A program made the position numbers and the translations under genes. 64,000 bases of DNA from an uncultured SAR86 cluster bacterium. Lineage in GTDB: Bacteria > Pseudomonadota > Gammaproteobacteria > Magnimaribacterales > AG-339-G14. The first letter of the stretch is position 1, and each line of letters opens with the position of its first letter. The DNA lies in NCBI GenBank assembly GCA_902523885.1, contig CABZAV010000001.1, positions 248,001 through 312,000 of the forward strand, read 5' to 3'. The notes below the pieces were generated by a model. It was not told where the DNA came from, ran no database searches, and saw nothing but the letters and a program-made list of their open reading frames with translations. Below are positions 54,679 through 57,452 of the stretch, in pieces.

Positions 54679-55181
54679 CAGAATATCTCGATAAAAAAAA
54701 TAATTTTATATCAGTATATTTTTTTATTGGAATAACAATATTCATATCACTAGTATCAGAAATTTTTATATCAAATTTATTTAATTTATTTGTTTTTCTG
54801 CCTGTAACTCTTATGGTTCTAATTTATTGGAATATGGCACTTCCAAAAGATATAGGATTAATTTGGGCAATGATATTTGGTTTTTGCTTAGACGTTAATC
54901 AAGAAATATTGTTGGGATCTCATGTATTACTTTTTTTACTTATTTCTTACTTAACACAAAGATATTTTCATAGATTAAGAGCTCTTTACATGATTCAACA
55001 ATCATTATTCGTTGCTATCGTTGTTTTAATTTATCAAATTTTTTTAATTCTTTTTTTTAGTGAGTTTAAAGAAAGAATCTTGTTCGAGTTGATTCTGATG
55101 ACGATGTTATCAGCTTTTTTGTGGCCAGTTGTTTTTGGAATCTTACGACAATTAAGAATTAAATTTATTCAATCTAGCTAA
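54675..55181 (+). CDS. mreD: rod shape-determining protein MreD
   Basis: The 168-aa protein is a five- to six-helix membrane protein of the MreD family. FGFCLDVNQEILLGSHVLLFLLI matches the conserved GLLxDxxxxxxLGxxAL region, and VVFGILRQLR closes it. It completes mreBCD and overlaps the convergent mgtE by 4 bases. Confidence 0.9.
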   Translation: MTEYLDKKNNFISVYFFIGITIFISLVSEIFISNLFNLFVFLPVTLMVLIYWNMALPKDIGLIWAMIFGFCLDVNQEILLGSHVLLFLLISYLTQRYFHRLRALYMIQQSLFVAIVVLIYQIFLILFFSEFKERILFELILMTMLSAFLWPVVFGILRQLRIKFIQSS

Positions 55182-56515
55182 GAATAAAAGTAAGCGGCCA
55201 GCCCTAGGAAAGAGAAGAATCCAATAACATCAGTTACTGTTGTAACTATTACGCTTCCTGCAACTGCTGGATCCATTTTTAGACCTTTTAAGAGTATTGG
55301 AATTCCCATTCCAGACAAAACACCTGCAATCAAATTGATTATCATTGACAAGCAAATTACCCAAGCAAGCAACCAATCTTGAAACCATGAACAAGCTATC
55401 AAACTAAGAATAACTGCCCATATAAAACCATTAGAAATTCCTACAATTAGTTCTCTATTGAAAATATATAAATAATTTGCCCTTACTATTTGGCCAAGAG
55501 CCAAACCTCTAACAGTTATTGTAAGTGTTTGTGTGGCAGCTACTCCTCCCATACTTGCAATAATTGGCATTAAAACTGCTAAAAAAATTACTTGTTCTAA
55601 AGTTTCTTTGAAAATATTAATGACTGAGGCAGCTATTAAGGCAGTTAGAAGATTTGTTCCAAGCCAAAACCCTCTTGTTTTAATAGCGGTGCTCGTTTTT
55701 TCAAAAGTATCACTATCAATCCCTGAAATTTGTCTCAGTGATACATCTGCTTCTGATTTTATTTCGTCTATTACATCGTCAAAGGTAATTCTACCCAATA
55801 AATTATTTTGATCATCTGTCACTGGCGCAGAAATTAAATCATTTTTCTCAAAGATTCTAATTACTTCCGAAGATGTTGAGTTGACATTTATGGAATTAGT
55901 CTCATCTTCCATTAAATCTTTTGCAAGCTTATTAGGAGAGTTAGTTAATATTTTAGAGAGAGAAAGTATTCCTCTAAATTTATTAGTTTTACTTACAACG
56001 AAAAGACTGTCCGTCGCGTCAGGAAATTTTTTTTTCATTCTTAAGTACCTTAATACTACTTCTAAAGTATGATTAGGCCTTATCAAGATAAGGTCAGTGT
56101 TCATTAGTCCACCTGCAGTATTTTCAGGATAATCTAAGACTTTTTTGATCAATTGCCTATTCTGATCAGTCATGGCATCTAATACTTCAGCTGTAACCGT
56201 TTCGGGAAGATCTTGAAGAATGTCTGCTATTTCATCTGGTTCAAGGTTTTTTATAACTTCAGCTACTTCGATAGAGTCCATAAAAGAAAGAACCATTTCT
56301 CTTACTTCATCAGAAAGGTTGCTTAAAACTTCTCCCTCAATGCTTTCATCGATCAATTGCCAAATTATTGCTCTGTTATTTGGGGAGCTAGACTCTATCA
56401 AGATTGCAATATCATATGGTGGAATGCCATTAAACATTCTTTTTAGATCTTTAAATTCTCTCTTAGATAGTTCTTCTTGAACAAAACTTATGTTCACATC
56501 TGAAGGATTATTCAT
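55178..56515 (-). CDS. mgtE: magnesium transporter MgtE
   Basis: MgtE is a dimeric, magnesium-gated channel of the inner membrane. The 445-aa protein has the N-terminal helical domain (about 20-125, LEPDEIADILQDLPETVTAEVLDAM), two CBS domains (about 130-250) and five membrane helices from about 280, with the selectivity region ASMGGVAATQTLTITVRGLALGQI. It overlaps the sigma-54 fragment by 4 bases (ATGA), so it is in the kdsD-lptC-lptB transcript or shares its translation coupling. Confidence 0.96.
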   Translation of the reverse strand: MNNPSDVNISFVQEELSKREFKDLKRMFNGIPPYDIAILIESSSPNNRAIIWQLIDESIEGEVLSNLSDEVREMVLSFMDSIEVAEVIKNLEPDEIADILQDLPETVTAEVLDAMTDQNRQLIKKVLDYPENTAGGLMNTDLILIRPNHTLEVVLRYLRMKKKFPDATDSLFVVSKTNKFRGILSLSKILTNSPNKLAKDLMEDETNSINVNSTSSEVIRIFEKNDLISAPVTDDQNNLLGRITFDDVIDEIKSEADVSLRQISGIDSDTFEKTSTAIKTRGFWLGTNLLTALIAASVINIFKETLEQVIFLAVLMPIIASMGGVAATQTLTITVRGLALGQIVRANYLYIFNRELIVGISNGFIWAVILSLIACSWFQDWLLAWVICLSMIINLIAGVLSGMGIPILLKGLKMDPAVAGSVIVTTVTDVIGFFSFLGLAAYFYS

Positions 56516-56739
56516 TCTCTTTTTAAAGAAGAGGGTATATTTAATTCTTCTCTATACTTTGCTATGGTTTTTCTGGATACTTTAATATCAAATTCTAAAT
56601 TAAATATATTAGAAAGCTCTTCATCTGATTTTTTCTTAATTCCTTCTTTTTTTATCTCCTTTTTAAGAAATTCATAAATCTTAGTTCTAAGACTTTTTTT
56701 AATTTGTAACTGATTGATGTAAAAATGCTTTTTTTTCAT
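56512..56739 (-). CDS. stand-alone sigma-54 C-terminal (RpoN-box) domain protein
   Basis: The 75-aa protein is a free-standing C-terminal DNA-binding domain of sigma-54. Residues 55-64, SRKTIAKYRE, are the RpoN box (ARRTVAKYRE in E. coli), which reads the -24 promoter element; LNIPSS follows as in full RpoN. Residues 16-50 match the preceding helices. Regions I and II and the core-binding domain, about 400 residues, are absent. It sits directly after lptB, the rpoN position in gammaproteobacteria. It overlaps lptB by 1 base (TAATG) and mgtE by 4 (ATGA). The frame is intact, so it looks like a retained small gene. It cannot act as a sigma factor; DNA binding is inferred. Confidence 0.85.
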   Translation of the reverse strand: MKKKHFYINQLQIKKSLRTKIYEFLKKEIKKEGIKKKSDEELSNIFNLEFDIKVSRKTIAKYREELNIPSSLKRE

Positions 56740-57452
56740 TAACTTTCTTCACCTAAATAAGTTTCTTTAACTAATTTATTATTAGAAACTTCATTTGGAG
56801 TTCCTCTAGAGATTATCGATCCTTCGCTAATAATAAAAATTTCACTGCAGATATCCATTGTCGCTTTAACATTATGGTCACTTATTAAAATACCTAAACC
56901 TTTATTGGAAAGTTTTTTTATTAAGTTTTTTAATTCAAGTATTGCTATTGGATCAATTCCTGCGAATGGTTCATCAAGCATAATAAATTTAGGATTTAAA
57001 GCAATTGATCTTGCAATTTCTACTCTTCTTCTTTGTCCGCCAGATAATTGACCTCCTTTTTGTGATGTTATAGAACCAATATCAAAGTCTTCAATTATTT
57101 CTTCTGTTTTTAGACTAAGTTCCCTTTTGTCTAATTTTCGAACTTCGAAAGCTGACTTGATATTATCTGAAACAGTTAAATTTCTAAAAATCGAAGGCTC
57201 TTGAGGCAAATAAACAATTCCTAAATTTGCTCTTTCTCTAATAGTTTTATTTGTAATAACTTTTTGATTAAAAATAATTTCTCCTTTAGAAGGCTGGAGA
57301 AGCCCTGCCAATATATAAAAAAATGTAGTTTTTCCTGCTCCATTCGGTCCAAGCAAACCACTAATACTATTGATGTTTATCTCTGCGTCAATACATTGCA
57401 AAATGGTTTTATTACCATAATGTTTAGAGATTTTTTTCGCTTTTAAAATCAT
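56739..57452 (-). CDS. lptB: LPS export ABC transporter ATPase LptB
   Basis: LptB powers LPS extraction by LptFG. The 237-aa ATPase has Walker A GPNGAGKT at 35-42, the signature LSGGQRRRVEIAR, Walker B FIMLDEP and the switch His in SDHN. It overlaps the lptC end by 29 bases. lptA, which normally lies between lptC and lptB, is not there. Confidence 0.97.
   Translation of the reverse strand: MILKAKKISKHYGNKTILQCIDAEININSISGLLGPNGAGKTTFFYILAGLLQPSKGEIIFNQKVITNKTIRERANLGIVYLPQEPSIFRNLTVSDNIKSAFEVRKLDKRELSLKTEEIIEDFDIGSITSQKGGQLSGGQRRRVEIARSIALNPKFIMLDEPFAGIDPIAILELKNLIKKLSNKGLGILISDHNVKATMDICSEIFIISEGSIISRGTPNEVSNNKLVKETYLGEES

Follow-up and report, generated by a model that had tools for sequence, protein, structure and literature searches.

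A stand-alone RpoN domain between lptB and mgtE in SAR86: apparent in-place reduction of sigma-54 to a probable small DNA-binding regulator

In the window, by which the whole analysed stretch of 64,000 nucleotides is meant, an open reading frame of 75 amino acids is found at 56512..56739 (-), with an ATG start and a C-terminal end reading SRKTIAKYREELNIPSSLKRE; a Pfam match and the family alignment identify it as a stand-alone RpoN-domain gene. It lies between lptB, its upstream neighbour (56739..57452 (-)), the stop codon of which overlaps the start of the short gene by 1 base (TAATG), and mgtE, its downstream neighbour (55178..56515 (-)), the start of which overlaps the stop of the short gene by 4 bases (ATGA). 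The frame is confirmed as real. The overlaps are similar in relatives of the same genus (g1), and the junctions are different in genus g2. The protein is basic (pI 9.9, net charge about +9.6), as is the whole family of short proteins (pI 9.8-10.3, charge from +7.5 to +14), and the C-terminal domains of several full-length SAR86 RpoN proteins are equally basic. The genome that carries the gene is a SAR86 genome of 1,114,958 bp (1.11 Mb) in 15 contigs, 88% complete. Its family is designated here f1, to which the NtrC proteins of genera g1, g2 and g3 are assigned, and f2 and f3 are related families of the same order.

The Pfam profile PF04552 (Sigma54_DBD) matches the short protein with 45.4 bits against a cut-off of 22.8 (E=9.3e-12), and the match to the C-terminal domain of sigma-54 on which the original prediction depended is thus present. 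It covers only positions 101-158 of the 160 of the profile, namely its last third, corresponding to the terminal RpoN domain, while the -12 helix-turn-helix forming the first part of PF04552 is missing, the profile positions before 101 being unmatched. A PDB sequence search with the family profile gave the RpoN domain of Aquifex (2O8K/2AHQ) as the best match (E=4e-13), and the homology spans residues 17-73. Both matches document an RpoN domain with its RpoN box, in which an Arg is changed to Lys. With the NCBIfam rpoN_sigma equivalog model (TIGR02395) the short protein scores 43.9 bits, below the cut-off of 277, which is a weak test because the full-length SAR86 protein L008 itself scores 234 and is also under the cut-off.

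The remaining parts of sigma-54 were sought throughout the genome and the family. The genome contains no second PF04552 match; the core-binding domain (PF04963) has no match over the cut-off in any f1 genome, with 14 f2/f3 genomes matching; and the activator-interacting region I (PF00309) has none in the genome under study, nor over the cut-off in any f1 genome, with matches in f2/f3 genomes. A full-length RpoN profile (A1), custom-built from ten SAR86 RpoN proteins, retrieves from the 40 family genomes the short domain and no other RpoN, and weak PF04552 matches to 413-aa proteins in g3 were recognized as MetK and set aside as false positives. Thus, there is no full rpoN elsewhere, in agreement with the original interpretation, and a sigma-54 split into separate genes was rejected as no N-terminal part is found with any of these profiles; with no further sigma-54 part in 40 family genomes, a split or relocated sigma-54, like an assembly error, is very unlikely. 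Because region I, the core-binding domain and the -12 helix-turn-helix are absent both from the short protein and from the rest of the genome, the short protein is not a sigma factor and cannot act as one.

The lptB-mgtE slot that holds the short gene in g1 and g2 holds full-length rpoN (413-440 aa) in f2 and f3, where rpoN adjoins lptB, with mgtE on the opposite side in most of the fetched loci, in agreement with the postulated replacement of rpoN in place. Since the SAR86 RpoN proteins are of this length, the loss amounts to about 350 residues, correcting the initial estimate of about 400. The proposed search of related genomes for short Sigma54_DBD proteins returned the short form in 10 of the 10 g1/g2 genomes with the locus assembled, and in no other among the 203 genomes of the order; five apparent absences (G003, G004, G005, G023 and G026) were left out as uninformative because mgtE is missing there too or the contig ends inside mgtE. 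A sequencing or assembly error deleting the 5' part is ruled out by the ten genomes, one of which, from g2, is a single contig, 97% complete, and by separate isolate names in the public records. One f3 genome (G106:C1:584114-584565) has rpoN split between profile positions 97 and 102 by an apparent frameshift, more suggestive of a sequencing error than of another short form. No viral relatives of the short protein were found in viral contigs; a phage collection yielded matches to four 'Listeria phage' records that lack annotation, regarded as probable rpoN of the host.

In g4, rpoN is gone and lptB directly abuts mgtE; g3 has lost mgtE as well as rpoN, and its lptB borders mreD; complete loss of rpoN is seen in g3, g4, f4 and g11. 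In the LptB tree g3 groups with g4 (support 97/92), and in the NtrC tree g1 and g2 lie apart from g3, which places the truncation of rpoN in the ancestor of g1 and g2 or earlier, and its complete loss on the line of g3 and g4. In a SAR86 lineage, rpoN was reduced, at its own locus, to the C-terminal RpoN domain.

An AlphaFold2 model of the protein predicts three helices, at residues 17-31 (56647..56691 (-)), 39-50 (56590..56625 (-)), the latter being the first of the helix-turn-helix, and 56-65, with pLDDT of about 92 in the helix-turn-helix. The RpoN box, SRKTIAKYREE (residues 55-65, 56545..56577 (-)), located from the alignment and the model, would provide the recognition helix, and an N-terminal basic arm (residues 1-16, 56692..56739 (-)) is modelled with low confidence, with L11 and K14 common to both genera. 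VIA-align comparison of the model ranks E. coli sigma-54 chains at the top (Z 8.2-8.8), and the RpoN domain on -24 DNA (2O8K) is matched with Z 7.8 and 2.5 A over 61 residues, so that the predicted structure equals that of the -24-reading domain; Z values of 7.8-8.8 cannot by themselves settle the matter for a domain so small and helical, but the sequence match is independent of them.

In all ten short proteins the box reads SRKTI(A/S)KYR, and thus keeps the S/A-R-x-T-x-x-K-Y-R residues of the DNA-contacting box, with Lys replacing its second Arg; the 14 full-length SAR86 proteins have RR. The changed residue corresponds, in the numbering that we assume, to R456 of E. coli sigma-54. In the latter, R455A or R456A prevents -24 binding (PMC7175178). 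Lys for Arg is a mild substitution, but its fixation in all ten proteins suggests altered recognition.

Selection on the short gene was evaluated from codon substitutions. Averaged over pairs, dN/dS is 0.064 for g1 and 0.184 for g2 (overall range, 0.02-0.29), with about 0.09 for lptB and 0.04-0.05 for mgtE, and variable sites at codon positions 1/2/3 number 28/13/54 and 39/18/55 in g1 and g2, respectively. Between g1 and g2, identity reaches 73% in the recognition helix, and 8 of the 11 RpoN-box residues are invariant in the 10 proteins; the tail after the box is 60% identical, and the arm, helices 1-2 and loops 21-39%. Simulated under neutrality, the frame survives uninterrupted in 1.2% of runs at 0.5 substitutions per site and in 0.16% at 1. 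These values point to purifying selection concentrated on the recognition helix of a gene kept as a protein, and the marks of a pseudogene (relaxed selection, broken copies in relatives) are not seen. The original prediction of a maintained gene in translational overlap with its neighbours is therefore borne out by dN/dS and by the open frame in 10/10 genomes, and the opposite picture, of a full rpoN elsewhere and a copy decaying in relatives, does not apply.

A different outcome was obtained for the sites that sigma-54 would have used. The suggested search for TGGCAC-N5-TTGC sites between genes found no intergenic canonical -24/-12 target in the genome under study (G000), in which the ten strict TGGCAY-N5-TTGC matches all lie within coding sequence; in three f3 genomes, many of the strict matches lie between genes, as upstream of glnA and of a porin-glnK unit. 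Over 10.8 kb of intergenic DNA, TGGCA shows no enrichment (9 occurrences, against a mean of 7.6 for 5-mers of the same composition), and footprinting across g1 genomes, aimed at conserved TGGCA between genes, was underpowered, with 13 gaps (1.6 kb) aligned. Upstream of glnA, TGGCA(C/T)-N5-TTGC sites are found in 3 of the 4 f3 genomes looked at, together with NtrC-like half-sites. When the sequences of L101 (the genome under study), L102 and L103 were compared with those of L105, L129 and L130, the g1, g2 and g3 segment could be aligned to the f3 promoter, with the half-sites kept and the -24 GG absent, and resembles an extended -10 (TTTGATAAT or close variants). The f1 glnA promoter seems to have been converted, at its own position, from sigma-54 to sigma-70. 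The idea of a regulator acting at former -24/-12 sites is left unsupported, as far as canonical sites are concerned, by the coding position of the matches, the loss of the GG at glnA and the Arg to Lys change in the box.

The activator has also changed. In f1 NtrC (L101:7312-8709 (-) on C1 of the genome under study; L102, L103, L111-L124) GNVRQL has become GNVLQLQN throughout g1-g3, with loss of an arginine that we take to be probably that of AAA+ sensor II. NtrC survives in g1-g3, and the check for GAFTGA activators, also suggested originally, showed GAFTGA to be kept in g1/g2 NtrC, with the conserved GNVRQL arginine lost and a His beside the GAFTGA loop changed to Tyr; all six g3 NtrC proteins, from genomes that lack the short gene, have GAFKGA. 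Such changes suggest that f1 NtrC may no longer be a sigma-54-remodelling ATPase. In g4, f4 and the f3 genus g11 (G050), neither rpoN nor the NtrC-type activator is present, as would be expected if NtrC were the chief partner of SAR86 sigma-54. In f2, the RpoN proteins (L008-L015) have a weak activator-interacting region (22-25 bits, versus 48-58 in f3) and no canonical -24/-12 site is present upstream of glnA, so that sigma-54 may already be divergent there. Overall, the sigma-54 circuit has been dismantled around the short gene.

As selection has preserved the DNA-reading part, the product is probably a small DNA-binding regulator of its own, with a specificity that would have drifted from TGGCA. 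In the mechanism we propose, rpoN was reduced in place to the C-terminal RpoN domain, the three-helix helix-turn-helix that reads the -24 element in full sigma-54; the resulting small basic protein would bind DNA through its RpoN-box helix and would act by steric occlusion at promoters, or by sequence-preferring DNA binding, at target sites drifted in sequence away from TGGCA. Binding is deduced from homology and conservation, and the sign of regulation and the targets are likewise conjectural. The 60-aa RpoN domain of Aquifex binds -24 DNA with a Kd of about 109 nM, and expression of RpoN* alone altered transcription in Pseudomonas even when native RpoN was absent (PMC5626770), so that an isolated RpoN domain may be sufficient, in principle, for regulation by occlusion. 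Against a regulator stand the TGGCA count and the strict-site search, which reveal no DNA target, the Lys at the second Arg of the box, and the lack of a visible dimer or effector domain; an RpoN domain on its own may lack the affinity or the specificity needed to regulate. Furthermore, the short gene is dispensable in related backgrounds, as its loss in g3/g4 shows. The chances are about even for the wider reading, in which the -24-reading domain would have become an independent, re-targeted regulator within a stepwise sigma-70 rebuilding of the nitrogen circuit, with NtrC probably devoid of its normal ATPase and the glnA -24/-12 promoter converted in place to a -10-type one.

Other roles have to be weighed against that of a specific regulator. 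A nucleoid-type protein that discriminates little between sequences and contributes in a minor way to DNA architecture or silencing would account for the strongly basic character of the family, for a box in which Lys would soften base reading and for the absence of target enrichment, and an NAP-like, RNAP-independent role has been proposed for E. coli sigma-54 (PMC9017345); it is nevertheless unlikely, as selection acts on the base-reading helix and not on general charge, and several full-length SAR86 C-terminal domains are just as basic. The domain might instead assist the surviving NtrC on promoters of the sigma-70 type, where it would stand in for sigma-54 in recognizing the promoter, since GAFTGA is kept where the short gene is present and is GAFKGA in g3, where it is absent, and NtrC-like half-sites persist upstream of glnA. 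However, GAFTGA touches region I of sigma-54 (PMC7057263), which is absent here, the His to Tyr change and the loss of the GNVRQL arginine affect g1/g2 NtrC, the latter as in g3, and the glnA promoter of g3, where the domain is missing, is laid out in the same way; with one phylogenetic contrast behind it, such a partnership seems quite improbable.

The reduced genomes, the complete loss of rpoN in four related groups and the fast divergence of helices 1-2 and of the arm could also be read as decay of a functionless remnant, open by chance or through the overlaps with its neighbours. The low dN/dS, the almost invariant box, the open frame in ten genomes of two genera despite large synonymous divergence (at 1 substitution per site, about 0.2% of neutral frames would still be open) and the direct junction of lptB and mgtE in g4, showing that the neighbours need no short gene, speak against decay so strongly that it was rejected. 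Recruitment of the old recognition helix to RNA or protein binding is comparably remote: the protein is basic and the DNA target searches gave no result, but the conserved residues are those of the DNA-contacting box and the predicted fold is that of the DNA-bound domain. Least credible of all is that the frame mainly couples translation of lptB and mgtE, or serves as a leader between them, with a protein of no relevance; the TAATG and ATGA overlaps, similar in g1 relatives, would fit it, but the box is conserved at the amino-acid level, the junctions differ in g2, and g3/g4 do without the gene.

The short protein, which we favour as a specific regulator, can be placed among known systems. As a free-standing protein it is a new form within the RpoN-domain superfamily: it shares with the RpoN domain of sigma-54 (Aquifex 2O8K/2O9L/2AHQ; 2MT3) three helices with a helix-turn-helix, the R-x-T-x-x-K-Y-R box and the rpoN operon slot, and differs from it in standing alone, in the Lys at the second box Arg and in its N-terminal arm, as it differs from full sigma-54 in lacking region I, the core-binding domain and the -12 helix-turn-helix. 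A close parallel is the RpoN* roadblock (PMC5626770), also an RpoN domain alone (60 aa) devoid of core-binding parts, and the model (pLDDT about 92; Z 7.8) predicts the same isolated helix-turn-helix fold. RpoN*, however, is a laboratory construct placed in cells with canonical -24 sites, whereas the SAR86 protein is natural and conserved, has an altered box and is encoded in a genome in which the canonical sites are all coding; it is most likely a natural counterpart of RpoN* with altered specificity. In the open literature, subscription journals being outside the scope, no description of a natural free-standing RpoN-domain protein was found. The winged helix-turn-helix repressor domains of ArgR/AhrC, FapR and NiaR have similar small folds (VIA Z 6-8), but these proteins have effector or oligomerisation domains and the likeness is one of fold only, with no homology shown. 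In Rhodobacter capsulatus and Caulobacter NtrC works with sigma-70 (PMC10274813), and there, too, a part of the sigma-54 circuit was reassigned after uncoupling, with glnA under NtrC; in that case, however, it is the activator that was modified, and here a sigma factor that was reduced to its DNA-reading domain.

If the proposal is correct, what was once a sigma factor now regulates transcription as an independent protein. As a rule sigma-54 is either retained in full or lost; reduction to the DNA-reading domain is a third fate, fixed long enough to span two genera of very abundant marine bacteria. It supplies a naturally occurring parallel to an engineered inhibitor and opens to experiment the question of how part of a sigma factor can evolve into a transcription factor. 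The successive stages are preserved among the relatives, from the intact system of f3 through the divergent one of f2 and the reduced one of g1/g2 to its disappearance in g3, g4 and f4.
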